From Candidatus Cloacimonadota bacterium (GTDB lineage Bacteria; Cloacimonadota; Cloacimonadia; Cloacimonadales; Cloacimonadaceae): a stretch of DNA of 64,000 bases. A program made the translations under genes and the position numbers. Below, piece by piece: positions 6,034 to 12,580 of this stretch. Position 1 is the first letter of the stretch. Each line of letters starts with the position of its first letter. The stretch is taken from assembly GCA_018433885.1 (NCBI GenBank), contig JAHDQK010000014.1, positions 1-64,000 on the forward strand, in the 5' to 3' direction. Below the pieces are notes generated by a model. That model was not told the origin of the DNA. It did no database searches and saw only the letters and a list, made by a program, of their open reading frames with translations.

Positions 6034-6064
6034 ACGGGTACCCTTGTGGTACCCGTTTCTTTAT
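6034..6064 (+). terminator. Rho-independent terminator after pckA
   Basis: Perfect 9-bp stem ACGGGTACC (6034-6042) / GGTACCCGT (6048-6056) with loop CTTGT, followed by TTCTTTATT. Confidence 0.85.
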
Positions 6065-6433: not shown

Positions 6434-7627
6434 ATGACGATATTGATAATCGCGACTCTGATCCTGATAATCCATTGGGCTTTGGAGTATCGCAGACACA
6501 GCCGAAATGTGGCGGAGATCCCCATCCGCATACATGTAAATGGCACCAGGGGGAAATCCAGCGTCACGCGATTGATCGCTGCCGGTTTGCGCGCCGGTGG
6601 CAAGAAAACCATTGCAAAAATCACCGGAACTCTACCCCGAGTAGTATTGTCAGATGGTAGAGAAGCGGCAATCATCCGTTTACAAGGCGCAAACATAATC
6701 GAGCAGAAATACATCTTCCGCTATGCGGCAAAAGAGAAGCCGGACGCGATTGTGATCGAATGTATGGCGGTAAACCCGGTATTCCAATGGATTACCGAGC
6801 GCAAATTTATCAAAAGTACCATTTCCGTGATCACGAACAGCCGTCCGGATCATCTGGATTTGATGGGCAGCACCGTGCAAAGCGTAACCATGAGCTTGGC
6901 TAATTCCATCCCCGCCGGGGGCGTGTGTTATACAGCCGAGGTGCAACAATTCCCCATCCTGAAAAAGGTCGCAGATGCCAGAAAGACCCGGATCCATAAA
7001 ATTGTGCCGACGGATGTTACCGACGAGGAGATGAGCAAGTTTCGCTATATCGAGCACAAAGATAACGTGCAGCTTGCGCTTGCTGTTTGTGCAGAAGCGG
7101 GAGTTGCCAGAGATAAAGCTCTGGCAGGAATGCAAGCTGCCCACCCGGATCCCGGCGCACTGAAGAAGTACTTGGTGGAAGACCGCCAGAAGAGCATCCA
7201 TTTCTACAATGTATTTGCCGCCAACGATCCCGAATCCACCGTGTACATCATCAATATGGTTACGGGAAAGCTTAGTGGAGTGGAAAAGATCATCATCCTA
7301 AACTCCCGCGCGGATCGTTTGTTCCGTTCCCAACAGCTGATAGATGCTTTGGCAAGGGTGAAGTACGACTACCTGCTATTGACCGGAGAAATCCCGGAAA
7401 AAGTGGCAGATTATGCCATCAGCAAAGGCATCCCCAAAGATCGCTTCTTCGCGATGGGTCAGCCCCTCACAGAAGAGATTTATCAAAAGGTCTGGCAGCT
7501 CACCAAGAAGGAATCCCACGTGTTGGGAATCGGGAACATCGCAGGTGAATTCAAATATGGCGCTCAGATAGTAGCACATTTTAAACATAAAATACCAAAA
7601 GCAAATAAAGGAGCTGGTCGTGGTTGA
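6434..7627 (+). CDS. pgsB: Poly-gamma-glutamate synthase subunit PgsB/CapB
   Basis: An ATP-dependent amide ligase of the Mur-ligase superfamily that polymerises glutamate through the gamma-carboxyl. The 397-aa protein has an N-terminal membrane helix (about residues 2-15), the ATP-binding loop VNGTRGKSS at 35-43, and ITNSRPDHLDLMG around 137-149, which are family hallmarks. The start has a GAGGAAAT site. It overlaps pgsC by 8 nt. Adjacent pgsC and pgsW-like genes support the assignment. No capA/pgsA homologue is seen in the window, and the stereochemistry of the polymer cannot be inferred. Confidence 0.92.
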   Translation: MTILIIATLILIIHWALEYRRHSRNVAEIPIRIHVNGTRGKSSVTRLIAAGLRAGGKKTIAKITGTLPRVVLSDGREAAIIRLQGANIIEQKYIFRYAAKEKPDAIVIECMAVNPVFQWITERKFIKSTISVITNSRPDHLDLMGSTVQSVTMSLANSIPAGGVCYTAEVQQFPILKKVADARKTRIHKIVPTDVTDEEMSKFRYIEHKDNVQLALAVCAEAGVARDKALAGMQAAHPDPGALKKYLVEDRQKSIHFYNVFAANDPESTVYIINMVTGKLSGVEKIIILNSRADRLFRSQQLIDALARVKYDYLLLTGEIPEKVADYAISKGIPKDRFFAMGQPLTEEIYQKVWQLTKKESHVLGIGNIAGEFKYGAQIVAHFKHKIPKANKGAGRG

Positions 7628-8075
7628 TGCAGTAGTACAAGCCGCAGTAGGACTCGGCGTTATCATCAGTTTGATCTTTTCGGAATTATTGGGAGCTTCC
7701 GCAGGTGGAATCGTAGTACCCGGCTATATCGCTCTACATCTGGACAAGCCAATGCAAATCCTAGGAACCCTGATCATCAGCTTGCTCACATGGGGCATCA
7801 TCCGCCTTGTAGGGCAGTTCACGCTGCTATTTGGCAAGCGCAGAATGGTGCTTAGCATCCTGATCGGTTTCATCTTGGGATGGGCATCCCGGCTTTTGGT
7901 GTTCCACGATCTTACCGTCCATCAACTCCAAATGCAATCCATTGGATACATCATCCCCGGCTTGATCGCAAACTGGTTTGAGCGGCAAGGTTTTTGGAAG
8001 ACCCTTTCCACAATGAGCATCGCAGCCATCTTGGTGAAACTGATGCTGATGGTGATTTTTGGCGGGGAGGTGTAA
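7620..8075 (+). CDS. pgsC: Poly-gamma-glutamate biosynthesis membrane protein PgsC/CapC
   Basis: A 151-aa membrane protein with four to five hydrophobic segments. It carries the PgsC-type N-terminal half GVIISLIFSELLGASAGGIVVPGYIALHLD followed by TLIISLLTWGIIRLV and SILIGFILGWA. It forms the membrane part of the synthase with PgsB. The start is GTG at 7620, with AGGAG at 7609-7613 inside the end of pgsB. Confidence 0.92.
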   Translation: MVDAVVQAAVGLGVIISLIFSELLGASAGGIVVPGYIALHLDKPMQILGTLIISLLTWGIIRLVGQFTLLFGKRRMVLSILIGFILGWASRLLVFHDLTVHQLQMQSIGYIIPGLIANWFERQGFWKTLSTMSIAAILVKLMLMVIFGGEV

Positions 8076-8076
8076 G

Positions 8077-9204
8077 ATGCTAAGAGGAATGTATCGTCCC
8101 AACCTCAAATCCGGCAGATCCCTGATCTCGCTTTTCATCCTATCGGTAATCTTATATCTGATCGCTTCAAACAACTTTGTGGAGATTCGAACTGCCAACT
8201 ACGACGAGAAACTTGCTGCAGTGAATTTGATGCAGACATATCTGGATACACTGCAATCTGAGATCATCGCTCGAGGCATCGAGATCGATCCCATTAATGA
8301 TCCCTTCCAGAGCGGGTTGATCGGGCAAAGACTTTCTTCGATCACTACGGACAGAGGTTTGTTATCCGAAAAACAAGCTTCCATAAACCCGAATATTGCC
8401 GCCATCTTCGTGGAAGAACTATCCAGAGCCAAAGAAGGCGAAAAAATCGCAGTAGGCATCACAGGAAGTAATCCTGCCGTAAACCTGGCTCTCTATGCAG
8501 CCATGACGGTGCTGAAGCTGGATCCCCAGATCATCGTATCGCTTTCCTCGGCATCATACGGTGCAAATCGGGAAGAGCTTACCTGGCTGGATATGGAAGC
8601 AATTCTTAGAACCAAAGGACTTTTGAACTTCGGAAGCAAATATGCCTCGTTAGGAGGAAGTGAAGACCGCGGAGTTGGCCTGAGTGATTTCGGCATCCAA
8701 TCCCTGCGTGAAGCCATGAGCCGTAACGCTGTCCCGCTACTATTGGGTGCAAGCTTAAACGAAAATGTGGACCTGCGTATGGCAGCCTATCAGGATATGT
8801 TGGGCGATTCAAACCGCTATAGGATGTTTGTGAACATCGGTGGTGGCTTGGCAAACGTAGGCAGTGAACCAAATGCTCGCTTGATCCCCGAAGGGCTGAA
8901 TACCAAACTCGCCGAACGTAATTTTGAACAGGAAGGCGTGATGATGAAGATGGCAAAAATGAACGTTCCCGTGCTTCACATCCGGCGTATCCTGCGGTGG
9001 GCAAACCGCTACGACCTGAGCCTCTCTTTGGAAACCAAACCGATTCCCGGAGAAGGTAGTGTCTTTAAGACCACTATCCACAATGTAACCATCGCCTCAA
9101 TCTGTCTGGCAATTCTAATCCTCGCCATTATCGCGGTCATCGTCTTCGATCGTCACGATCGTCGCTTTATGGCAAACATCGTGGATCCAGACGACGAATT
9201 ATAG
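8077..9204 (+). CDS. Poly-gamma-glutamate system protein (PgsW-like)
   Basis: A 375-aa protein with an N-terminal hydrophobic segment (LISLFILSVILYLIAS, about residues 16-31), a long soluble domain and a C-terminal membrane helix (ICLAILILAIIAVIVF). It sits directly after pgsC, which fits the 'poly-gamma-glutamate system protein' family known from spirochaetes and Cloacimonadota. The ATG at 8077 is chosen because GGGGAGG (8064-8070) is well placed; an upstream TTG overlapping pgsC is less likely. The soluble domain contains KIAVGITGSNPAVNLALYAA and LLLGASLNENVDLR, without motifs I can tie to a known reaction. Role in polymer handling is inferred from context. Confidence 0.75.
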   Translation: MLRGMYRPNLKSGRSLISLFILSVILYLIASNNFVEIRTANYDEKLAAVNLMQTYLDTLQSEIIARGIEIDPINDPFQSGLIGQRLSSITTDRGLLSEKQASINPNIAAIFVEELSRAKEGEKIAVGITGSNPAVNLALYAAMTVLKLDPQIIVSLSSASYGANREELTWLDMEAILRTKGLLNFGSKYASLGGSEDRGVGLSDFGIQSLREAMSRNAVPLLLGASLNENVDLRMAAYQDMLGDSNRYRMFVNIGGGLANVGSEPNARLIPEGLNTKLAERNFEQEGVMMKMAKMNVPVLHIRRILRWANRYDLSLSLETKPIPGEGSVFKTTIHNVTIASICLAILILAIIAVIVFDRHDRRFMANIVDPDDEL

Positions 9205-9219
9205 GAGACATTCAGATAA

Positions 9220-10044
9220 ATGACAAAGAAACTAAGCCTCATGATCCTGCTATGCCTTATTGCATTTGGCGCTTTCGCACAGAATTATAAAACCAGAATC
9301 ATGGATTTTGAAAACCCCGGCAGTCGCAGAATTCGCCAGACCGACAGCGGAAATCACTGGTACTACCGAAGCCTTCCGGAAAAGACCATGACCCTGAATA
9401 CCGAAGGTGTGGAACGCATCCAGATTCGTAGCTTCGACATCGAGAGATTGCGCAAGCCCCAGATCCATATCTTAATCAACAAAGAACGCACAACTTTTGA
9501 TCTCAAATTGGCAGAACGCCTGAACGGATACTATCTCTATGAAGATATTGAGTTTGATGTTCCCGCCGGAACCAAAAGCTTGGAAGTGCTCTGCTATCAA
9601 CGTAGCACATACATGCGCGCCTATGAAATGGAAAAGATCATCCCCAAAGTGAAACCGATAAGAATCCCCAACCGTCAGATCCATGCCCACGCGGGAATCA
9701 TCGATCTTACTCATAATTCCAGTAGTAGCGAATACTACACATTCAACCCCAGCCAAGCATTCCGGTTTTCTCATAACAATGCCAAGAACGGCGTTGTATA
9801 TATTCGTGCCAGACTCACAGACCGCACTTTACCCGTCTTCAGCTTGTGGCACAATGGTACGAAAGTGGATCAATACGAGTTTAGTCTTGCCCGAAGCACC
9901 AAGTATAGCGCGCAAGGCATCCGGTATCTTACCGTAGGCATGCGTCTTGAACTTCCGGAAAATCTTAACAGTAGCGAGTATGAGTTGCGCGCGGAATCCG
10001 ACCATCTTTTCCTTGCCAGACCGGTGATCCTCTTGGATAGGTAA
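9220..10044 (+). CDS. Exported protein of unknown function in the pgs cluster
   Basis: 274 aa with a clear Sec signal peptide (KKLSLMILLCLIAFGAFAQ, predicted cleavage after about residue 20). The mature part is rich in beta-strand-like, Tyr/Arg-containing segments. I recognise no catalytic motif. It lies 15 nt after the PgsW-like gene and 3 nt or 99 nt before the barrel gene, depending on that gene's start. A periplasmic or cell-surface role tied to the polymer is inferred from position alone. Confidence 0.65.
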   Translation: MTKKLSLMILLCLIAFGAFAQNYKTRIMDFENPGSRRIRQTDSGNHWYYRSLPEKTMTLNTEGVERIQIRSFDIERLRKPQIHILINKERTTFDLKLAERLNGYYLYEDIEFDVPAGTKSLEVLCYQRSTYMRAYEMEKIIPKVKPIRIPNRQIHAHAGIIDLTHNSSSSEYYTFNPSQAFRFSHNNAKNGVVYIRARLTDRTLPVFSLWHNGTKVDQYEFSLARSTKYSAQGIRYLTVGMRLELPENLNSSEYELRAESDHLFLARPVILLDR

Positions 10045-10143
10045 AGCATGCAAGATCAGCAAGAAATCAACTTAGAAGCCAAAGTGAACCGGGAAATCTA
10101 CCCGGATCTTCAGGAAGAATTAAAAACTCCGGAGGAAAAGAAA

Positions 10144-11184
10144 GTGCGTAACAATAGAAATTTGACCCGCAAGAAAAACTTCCGGCCGATAATCCTTTGC
10201 TTGGCCTTGTTCTTAATATCATTTACCCTGGCACATGCCCAGTTAGAGGGTGAAATTACTTTGGGAGCCACCTATTCTGATAATCTGTTTCAATTTTCGG
10301 ATAGCGACCTCAGCCGTTGGGAAAACGGTAGCAACGGCTTGGCTTGGGCTAAGACTACGGACGACTTGAACCTGACTACTACGATAGATCTCGCCTATCC
10401 CATTCCTTATCGCTGGTGGACATTCACTCCTTCCGTTACAGGTACGATCAGCCAAACTGTAAAAAATACAGACAAATACCGTAGCGACACAATTCTGAGA
10501 TTCCGGGCGGATCGCCACTATTGGAGCGCTAGCGTTCTATATGGCTATTATCCTCACATCTATTACCGAAATTACAGCGACAGCGATGGTACCGGCAATC
10601 CAGAGAAATATTGCTACGAACGCAATCTGTATCGCGCGGATGTAATCCTGAGACCGATCAGTAAACTTAGTGCTTTCGGCAATATCCGGTATGAAGATCT
10701 TTACTACAACGAATACTTTACCGAATCCGACGGTAACCGTTTGACCACCGAATTTGGCGCGCGCTACAGCTTCCCCAGCTTTACCCTGCAAGGCTCTTAT
10801 GCCTATCGCAGCTACGACAACAGCGGATACAAAGATATGGCAGACGATGATGGTAGCTACGATAGCAATATATATCGCGGTGTGATGCGACTCAAACCGA
10901 TGCCACTTAGTGGAGAAAGCACTAGCAGGCAAAGCTGGCAACCGTATCTGGAGCTTAGCAAAGAAGATCGATTTTATCAGGGAAACAGTGCTTGGTTTGG
11001 GGGTCGAGAATATGCTATCTACAATACTAAAGCGGGTTTGAATATCAAACTGCATCCGGATTGGAATTTATCTCTTGACTACTTGCATATCTTCAGGAAT
11101 GTAGAATCTCCGAATGAGAGTGTTCTCCGGCTCAAAGAGTTTAATGAGAACCGCCTCTCCGCTGCGGTAAGCTACAAATTCTAA
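10144..11184 (+). CDS. Outer-membrane beta-barrel protein in the pgs cluster
   Basis: The GTG at 10144 is chosen: GGAGG lies at 10131-10135, and the product then begins with a normal signal peptide ending in SFTLAHAQ. An ATG at 10048 is also in frame but would put 32 charged residues in front. The 346-aa product starts mature LEGEITLGATYSDNLF and has many alternating aromatic strands (YWSASVLYGYYPHIYYRNYSD, TLQGSYAYRSYDNSG). It ends LSAAVSYKF, with the terminal Phe typical of BAM substrates. It could be the outer-membrane exit or anchor for poly-gamma-glutamate, an inference from operon position. Confidence 0.7.
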   Translation: MRNNRNLTRKKNFRPIILCLALFLISFTLAHAQLEGEITLGATYSDNLFQFSDSDLSRWENGSNGLAWAKTTDDLNLTTTIDLAYPIPYRWWTFTPSVTGTISQTVKNTDKYRSDTILRFRADRHYWSASVLYGYYPHIYYRNYSDSDGTGNPEKYCYERNLYRADVILRPISKLSAFGNIRYEDLYYNEYFTESDGNRLTTEFGARYSFPSFTLQGSYAYRSYDNSGYKDMADDDGSYDSNIYRGVMRLKPMPLSGESTSRQSWQPYLELSKEDRFYQGNSAWFGGREYAIYNTKAGLNIKLHPDWNLSLDYLHIFRNVESPNESVLRLKEFNENRLSAAVSYKF

Positions 11185-11198
11185 GCTGCGAGGTACAA

Positions 11199-11513
11199 AT
11201 GGAATTCCGTAAGGAAACAGATCGCAAGAAGATTAAAGAGTTCCTTGATCTGGTAGAAAACCACAAGGTGGAACTACGCCACTTCAAAAACCCGGTATTG
11301 GTTTGGACAAACTTCGACGGGGTCTGTCACTATACATTCTGGGAAGAAGAAACCCTTCTCCGCTTTGGTTTTACCAATGTGGACGGTTGGGACTACGAGG
11401 AAGACCTCCTGTTTTGCCCAGATTGGGTAGCCGAAGACGAAGATGACGACGATTTTGACGATGATGAGGACGACGAGGAACTGATCACTTTTTGTGAAAC
11501 AATCCCCAAATGA
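11199..11513 (+). CDS. Small protein with highly acidic tail
   Basis: 104 aa and no signal peptide. The N-terminal part is mixed charged with several Trp residues (VWTNFDGVCHYTFWEEE). Residues about 78-93 are nearly all Asp/Glu (EDEDDDDFDDDEDDEE). An SD GCGAGG precedes the ATG. The stop overlaps the gpsA start (ATGA, 11510-11513), so translation is coupled. I do not recognise the family. Confidence 0.7.
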   Translation: MEFRKETDRKKIKEFLDLVENHKVELRHFKNPVLVWTNFDGVCHYTFWEEETLLRFGFTNVDGWDYEEDLLFCPDWVAEDEDDDDFDDDEDDEELITFCETIPK

Positions 11514-12532
11514 AGATTAGTATAATCGGTGGCGGAGGCTGGGGGCTTGCCCTGGCGAAGCTACTTTCCGAAAACAGACACGATGTTCTTGTCTGGGAGT
11601 ATAACCCCGCTTTTCTGGATTCTCTGAAAAAAAACCATGCTAATCCTGCCCTACTAAAAGGTATTACGCTTCCTTCCGAGATCAGGTATACAGATTCATT
11701 TCAGATGGTTGCAGACTTTGCCAGCGATATACTCCTGCTTGCTACTCCGTCCCAGTTTATCCGCTCCACTCTGCGGATGATCCCGGAGGATATCGCAAGA
11801 AAGCTATGGGGTTCAGAGACCTTGTTGGCGATTGTCAATGTAGCAAAAGGCATCGAAGAACAGAGCCTGAAAACCATCGACAAGATACTTTTTGATGAGC
11901 TTCCCCAAAAGCTTCACTCAAAGATCTGCGCGCTATCCGGACCCAGTCACGCGGAAGAAGTAGCCCGCCAGATCCCTACTACTGTGGTGATTGCCGGAAC
12001 GAATGAGGAGCTGCTAAAGACCCTGCAGGAAGTATTCTCAAACGATTATTTCCGGGTATATCGCAGTGCGGATTTGGTAGGAGTGGAGATCGGCGGAGCC
12101 ATCAAAAACATCATAGCTATTGCAGCAGGAATCGTAAGCGGATTGGGTTTTGGCGACAACACCATGGGTGCGCTTCTGACCCGCGGAATAGTGGAAATCA
12201 GCCGTTTTGGCGAAAGCATGGATGCCCTTCCCGAGACCTTTTTAGGGTTATCTGGGATCGGAGACCTGATTACTACCGCGATCAGTCCCAACAGCCGGAA
12301 TCGCTATGTGGGATATGAACTTGGAAAAGGCAAAAAACTCAAGGAAATCCAAGCCTCCATGCAGATGGTGGCTGAGGGTGTGGCAAGCACACGTAGTGTA
12401 TATCAACTATCACAAAGGCTCGGCGTAGATATGCCAATAACCACTGAAGTCTATAAAATCCTCTACGAAGATAAAGAGCCATTGTTGGCAATGCGTGACC
12501 TCATGAAGCGCGAACTTAAAGCAGAGTTCTAA
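11510..12532 (+). CDS. gpsA: NAD(P)H-dependent glycerol-3-phosphate dehydrogenase
   Basis: Makes sn-glycerol-3-phosphate from DHAP for phospholipid synthesis. The 340-aa protein has an N-terminal Rossmann motif IIGGGGWGLALAKLL (residues 4-18) and the substrate-domain signature GGAIKNIIAIAAGIVSGLGFGDNTMGALLTRG (about 195-226), whose lysine is catalytic in the family. It is the last gene of the unit starting at pgsB and is followed by a strong terminator. Confidence 0.95.
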   Translation: MKISIIGGGGWGLALAKLLSENRHDVLVWEYNPAFLDSLKKNHANPALLKGITLPSEIRYTDSFQMVADFASDILLLATPSQFIRSTLRMIPEDIARKLWGSETLLAIVNVAKGIEEQSLKTIDKILFDELPQKLHSKICALSGPSHAEEVARQIPTTVVIAGTNEELLKTLQEVFSNDYFRVYRSADLVGVEIGGAIKNIIAIAAGIVSGLGFGDNTMGALLTRGIVEISRFGESMDALPETFLGLSGIGDLITTAISPNSRNRYVGYELGKGKKLKEIQASMQMVAEGVASTRSVYQLSQRLGVDMPITTEVYKILYEDKEPLLAMRDLMKRELKAEF

Positions 12533-12551: not shown

Positions 12552-12580
12552 ATGGGACCGGATTAACCGGTCCCATTTGT
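12552..12580. terminator. Bidirectional Rho-independent terminator
   Basis: Perfect 10-bp stem ATGGGACCGG (12552-12561) / CCGGTCCCAT (12567-12576) with loop ATTAA. It is followed by TTGTTTATA on the plus strand and by AATTTTTAA on the minus strand. It separates the convergent gpsA and the 12.6-13.9 kb gene. Confidence 0.9.

Follow-up and report, generated by a model that had tools for sequence, protein, structure and literature searches.

A five-gene pgsB-pgsC-pgsW-Exp-Bar unit in Cloacimonadota as a probable poly-gamma-glutamate synthesis and secretion system for a two-membrane envelope

Within a 64,000-nucleotide stretch of a 2.42-Mb draft Cloacimonadota genome (contig JAHDQK010000014.1, positions 1 to 64,000; hereafter the window), five consecutive genes, pgsB-pgsC-pgsW-Exp-Bar, probably encode an apparatus for the synthesis and secretion of poly-gamma-glutamate (PGA) that is built for an envelope with two membranes. 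We establish here the family identities, the order of the genes, a fusion of Exp with Bar and confident fold predictions for both proteins. With somewhat less assurance, we favor the view that Bar and Exp are a dedicated outer-membrane exit and periplasmic guide for a poly-amino-acid polymer, and that the five genes form one unit inherited within the Fibrobacterota-Chlorobiota-Bacteroidota (FCB) bacteria that was overlooked through the use of a monoderm template.

PgsB and PgsC polymerize glutamate at the inner membrane, and the window's proteins would be expected to do likewise. PgsW would then replace PgsA and, together with PgsBC, deliver the chain to the periplasm, where Exp could receive it and guide it across. 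Bar would release the chain through the outer membrane, its conserved outer rim possibly binding or gating the emerging polymer. All five open reading frames (ORFs) are open at the following positions of the window:

6434..7627, forward strand: pgsB, poly-gamma-glutamate synthase, an ATP-dependent amide ligase (TIGR04012 equivalog, 403.5 bits, cut-off 222.7; GTRGKSS P-loop)
7620..8075, forward strand: pgsC, inner-membrane partner of PgsB (TIGR04011, 129.1 bits, cut-off 96; PF14102 CapC, 127.6 bits)
8077 or 8089..9204, forward strand: pgsW, "poly-gamma-glutamate system protein" (TIGR04332, 304.6 bits, cut-off 100)
9220..10044, forward strand: Exp, an exported protein predicted to have two homologous jelly-roll domains (AlphaFold2 model; in no family)
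10048..11184, forward strand: Bar, a predicted 14-strand outer-membrane beta-barrel ending in ...SYKF, with a C-terminal Phe (AlphaFold2 model, Foldseek, phylum-wide profile search)

The genes are tightly packed, with pgsB and pgsC overlapping by 8 bases, pgsC and pgsW abutting, and gaps of 15 bases between pgsW and Exp and 3 bases between Exp and Bar. An earlier sequence-only reading of this DNA had proposed just such a unit of pgsB, pgsC, a PgsW-like gene, an exported protein and a barrel ending in Phe, and the ORFs, the curated cut-offs and the AlphaFold models bear it out. The pgsB product, whose nearest relative among named records is that of Cloacimonetes bacterium UBA5210 (90% identity), also matches the Mur ligase middle domain (PF08245). 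PgsW has a large central part with one hydrophobic segment at either end; its start is at 8077 or 8089, and the family alignment begins at M[FY]xPS. A search of PgsW against the PDB gave no meaningful match.

The first two genes align the unit with the Bacillus pgsBCA(E)/capBCA(D)(E) clusters, as PgsB and PgsC lie above their equivalog cut-offs and their genes are adjacent and in the same order. CapB and CapC, the mandatory components of a published PGA model that treats CapA and CapE as accessory, are both present and adjacent in the window (PMC5542703). Beyond this pair, the window's unit differs from that of Bacillus in having PgsW, Exp and Bar in place of CapA/PgsA, CapE and CapD, and in having an outer membrane to cross. 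The third gene, PgsA/CapA in the classical pgsBCA cluster, is here the TIGR04332 gene pgsW, which occupies the position of capA/pgsA in monoderms. No CapA/PgsA, CapE or CapD is found within the unit, in line with the earlier remark that capA/pgsA was not in sight, and the sole PGA_cap match of the whole genome is an unlinked secreted protein of about 980 residues on a different contig (G000 contig C31, L133:324-3266). This CapA-domain protein carries a PKD-like segment and a C-terminal tail resembling type IX secretion signals. We considered it as a PgsA and rejected it, as it does not have the membrane-anchored layout and is unlinked to the pgs genes.

Structure predictions, which the sequence-only reading had suggested as a check, support both envelope assignments. 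The Exp model shows a predicted signal helix followed by an all-beta fold (mean predicted local distance difference test, pLDDT, 95.5). Its two domains, at about residues 22-145 and 146-274, are related to one another with an hhalign probability of 99.6, and their mutual orientation is uncertain (predicted template modeling score, pTM, 0.66). Searches of Exp against Pfam, NCBIfam and PDB profiles gave chance-level matches only; by fold, Foldseek returned carbohydrate-binding modules and comparable lectin-like folds, and BcsB, which guides cellulose, ranked 49th.

Bar, an ORF of 378 residues of which the first approximately 40 codons are possibly untranslated, is modeled as a barrel of 14 strands (mean pLDDT 88.4, about 98 in the barrel; pTM 0.79). 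Its best Foldseek matches are the 14-strand barrels OmpG and CymA (E 1.8e-10, TM-score 0.66 by target length), with identities of 10-15%, so that the likeness is one of fold and membership of their families is not claimed; the PgaA and BcsC barrels rank lower. Bar belongs to no curated family, and a sequence search against the PDB gave chance matches only. Inside and outside faces were assigned by strand order and hydrophobicity rather than coordinates, and the strands alternate clearly: across the family, lumen-facing positions hold 19% Arg and Lys and 14% Asp and Glu, compared with 4.5% and 6%, respectively, at lipid-facing positions. Among 64 homologs, the net charge of the lumen has a median of +5 and is positive in 59. 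As modeled, such a positive lumen would be suited to a polyanion.

The outward loops of a barrel are usually its most variable part. In Bar, mean conservation is highest in the predicted outward loops (2.1 bits per position), followed by the strands (1.6) and the periplasmic turns (1.2). These loops lie at residues 78-105, 140-143, 178-180, 221-228, 268-270, 314-320, and 354-363, and their conserved positions, among them N79, S84, D105, E226, D228, R320, and K363, are rich in Asp, Glu, and Asn as well as Arg and Lys. Because this is the reverse of the usual pattern, the model suggests a specific role for the outer rim.

A tie between the two envelope proteins comes from three genomes (G022, G043, and G082, of families f4 and f9) in which Exp and Bar are encoded together in a single frame of about 640 residues, ordered as signal sequence, Exp part and barrel. 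Because Exp is N-terminal in the fusion and the N terminus of a barrel is periplasmic, this arrangement would place Exp on the periplasmic side. At the level of sequence, the fusion ties the two proteins together.

We surveyed 118 Cloacimonadota genomes, counting as Bar matches also partial pieces of broken genes. PgsW is present in 102 genomes and Bar in 93 by single-sequence search or 103 by profile. Single-sequence search recovers Exp in 56; in one part of the phylum, Exp has diverged too far for this search and forms a separate profile group. Bar lies directly downstream of pgsW on the same strand in 96 of 106 matches, and nine of the remaining ten are at or near contig breaks (G011, G031, G035, G055, G062, G065, G076, G100, and G112). 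The tenth, in G027, is the one true relocation, in a genome that retains pgsBCW; an Exp-like gene after pgsW in that genome (L138) was rejected, as its score vanished once its own sequence was left out of its profile, and no recognizable Exp is present there. In the three genomes with PgsW and without Bar, the contig stops before the Bar position. The full pgsB-pgsC-pgsW-Exp-Bar order was seen in regions read from about 50 genomes. Bar was not found in any genome demonstrably without pgsBCW, and the refutation that the sequence-only reading had named, occurrence of the two downstream genes without pgsBC in relatives, therefore fails. A Fisher test of Bar against PgsW presence (p about 1e-10) is not used as evidence, because draft genomes lose neighbors on a contig jointly and those compared here are related to one another. 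One draft genome (G083) holds two different pgsBCW-Exp-Bar clusters, on contigs C1 and C76 (L125 and L126), which represents either a duplication or a mixed bin.

The unit extends well beyond the phylum. We scanned 84,980 species genomes, using a PgsW alignment, and obtained 286 relatives, the best 80 of which are described here under the taxon names in the submitters' titles; two of these titles are probably wrong (L207, Alphaproteobacteria, and L211, Armatimonadetes). Exp and Bar were sought with profiles built from Cloacimonadota only, and broader profiles were also applied. Among the 73 loci with room downstream, Exp is present in 68 and Bar in 70, and the Cloacimonadota-only profiles find both in 65. 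With these profiles, the five-gene order recurs in every one of the 16 Bacteroidota loci that have room (uncultured metagenome-assembled genomes throughout), in 9 of 10 Marinimicrobia/Fidelibacterota loci (all 10 when the broader profiles are used), in all three Calditrichota and all three Zixibacteria loci, and in the one locus each of KSB1, TA06, and Eisenbacteria; the contig of a Fermentibacteria locus ends after Exp. The genes abut in these loci too, with a median Exp-Bar gap of 4 bases. Exceptions with room include three loci with Bar and without Exp (L137, L141, and L160) and the G027 locus described above.

Conserved throughout a phylum and also outside it, the gene order is not due to chance. 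The sequence-only reading had drawn the functional link from order and short gaps and had proposed looking for the order in other diderms; its recurrence in Cloacimonadota and at least seven other named FCB groups, together with the fusions and with Bar never turning up where pgsBCW is demonstrably lacking, supports that link. PgsB also exceeds its equivalog cut-off in the tested members from other phyla, and in the PgsB tree Bacteroidota, Fidelibacterota, and Calditrichota each form one group. Because this tree follows the phyla, the range of the unit is explained by descent rather than recent spread. Bar and PgsB diverge in parallel (r 0.91); such tree correlations mostly reflect vertical inheritance and are no proof of interaction. 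A suspected PgsB-PgsC fusion in L073 was rejected as a product of masked sequence.

The PgaA, AlgE, and BcsC/BcsB exporters offer an analogy, with an inner-membrane synthase, a periplasmic guide and an outer-membrane barrel in one operon. The window's system differs from them in polymer and synthase and shares no sequence family with them. Where those systems have a 16- or 18-strand barrel and TPR repeats, Bar has 14 strands and no room for TPR, and Exp is all-beta; in place of a glycosyltransferase, the synthase is a Mur-family amide ligase. The EpsL and TIGR03016 proteins of PEP-CTERM exopolysaccharide loci give weak profile matches in 3 and 1, respectively, of 64 Bar relatives (best 1e-5), whereas the window's Bar is unmatched and the biosynthetic genes are unrelated. 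Its synthase hence makes the unit a PGA system, whereas in its envelope part the arrangement is new.

How Bar would act admits more than one answer. It could instead serve at the surface as an anchor, a cap or a modifying factor, holding, trimming or cross-linking PGA outside the cell while the chain crosses elsewhere. The concentration of conserved positions in the predicted outward loops is what this explanation would lead one to expect; nevertheless, the same rim could equally be a gate, the unit contains no other outer-membrane component, and the fusion joins a periplasmic jelly-roll protein straight to the barrel, and we regard this alternative as unlikely. That the machine works alike on a related gamma-glutamyl or other poly-amino-acid polymer, with PGA not the product, appears a little less likely again. 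The Mur ligase/FolC superfamily, to which PgsB belongs, has members with varied substrates, and we did not find the product chemically proven for FCB bacteria, the DNA-stain evidence discussed below being indirect (PMC13082233); against this, both PgsB and PgsC score far above their equivalog cut-offs in the window, as does PgsB in the tested members of other phyla. The closest folds of Bar, OmpG and CymA, are general or sugar porins, which could suggest an ordinary nutrient porin merely cotranscribed with a periplasmic binding protein. With a single separation of Bar from pgsBCW in 118 genomes, in one that keeps pgsBCW, and with the gene order maintained in at least seven named groups, this explanation is very improbable.

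Several observations weigh against a PGA-exporting role for Exp and Bar. Their tie to the polymer is drawn from sequences and predicted models. The charge bias of the Bar lumen is modest and was measured within the Bar family, and the conserved outer loops would equally fit an anchoring or modifying role. No recognizable Exp lies between pgsW and Bar in five lineages (G034, G095, G104, G025, and G066), and no recognizable Bar was found at two non-Cloacimonadota loci (L202, Exp only; L209, neither). Finally, the diderm Cetobacterium somerae (Fusobacteriota) has the same pgsB-pgsC-pgsW order, its PgsW sharing 35% identity over 60% of the query, and no Exp or Bar follows; other diderm PGA systems can manage without them. 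Because this fusobacterial cluster does without both, the Exp-Bar extension is the mark of a single lineage, and the envelope-spanning version envisaged by the sequence-only reading is not a trait of diderms in general.

The Cetobacterium cluster, on plasmid NZ_CP143320.1 (L132), neighbors genes for a gamma-glutamyltransferase, DUF6305, a TRAP-transporter subunit and a succinylglutamate desuccinylase, a partner set perhaps for PGA breakdown or uptake. On plasmid NC_019699.1 of the cyanobacterium Chroococcidiopsis thermalis (L135), genes for a hypothetical protein and an HlyD-type adaptor come after pgsB-pgsC, which may be another way of crossing the outer membrane.

PGA genes (CapBC) were reported in Antarctic Cloacimonadota in 2021 (PMC8542988). 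A 2026 study of the cloacimonadotal Ca. Digestoria delfossei described a three-gene CapB-CapC-CapA operon in typical Gram-positive order, and interpreted as PGA a matrix around cells stained with 4',6-diamidino-2-phenylindole (DAPI) in a Cloacimonas enrichment; the words barrel, porin and periplasm are absent from its main text (PMC13082233). Both loci are almost certainly the same locus as the window's. The published capsule-typing scheme states that crossing the outer membrane takes diderms at least one additional protein, and its Bacillus CapABCDE model for PGA names none; the scheme already knew of pgsBC clusters in diderms (PMC5542703). Because a Francisella gene called capA also bears the annotation "poly-gamma-glutamate system protein" (PMC5362203), PgsW may be labeled "CapA" in other places as well. 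We found no paper naming Exp or Bar, or an outer-membrane PGA step, in a search that excluded subscription papers, preprints and supplements. With two concrete candidates, confident models and conserved residues, the crossing of the outer membrane by PGA becomes a testable question, and the reading of PGA matrix formation changes for anaerobic digesters and the sea, the homes of Cloacimonadota and Marinimicrobia.

Four further features of the window frame or accompany the five genes:

6034..6056, forward strand: terminator-like hairpin upstream of the unit
11199..11513, forward strand: small acidic protein, encoded after Bar across a large part of the phylum (in no family)
11510..12532, forward strand: gpsA, glycerol-3-phosphate dehydrogenase, with which the unit closes (Pfam, context)
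12552..12576, forward strand: terminator-like hairpin downstream of the unit

Linked to the unit only in part of Cloacimonadota, gpsA is a passenger. The small acidic protein (also at L081:6258-6539) has a conserved core, VDGWDxEEDLLFCPDW, and a tail rich in Asp and Glu, and its gene still adjoins Bar in G027, where Bar has moved away from pgsBCW.

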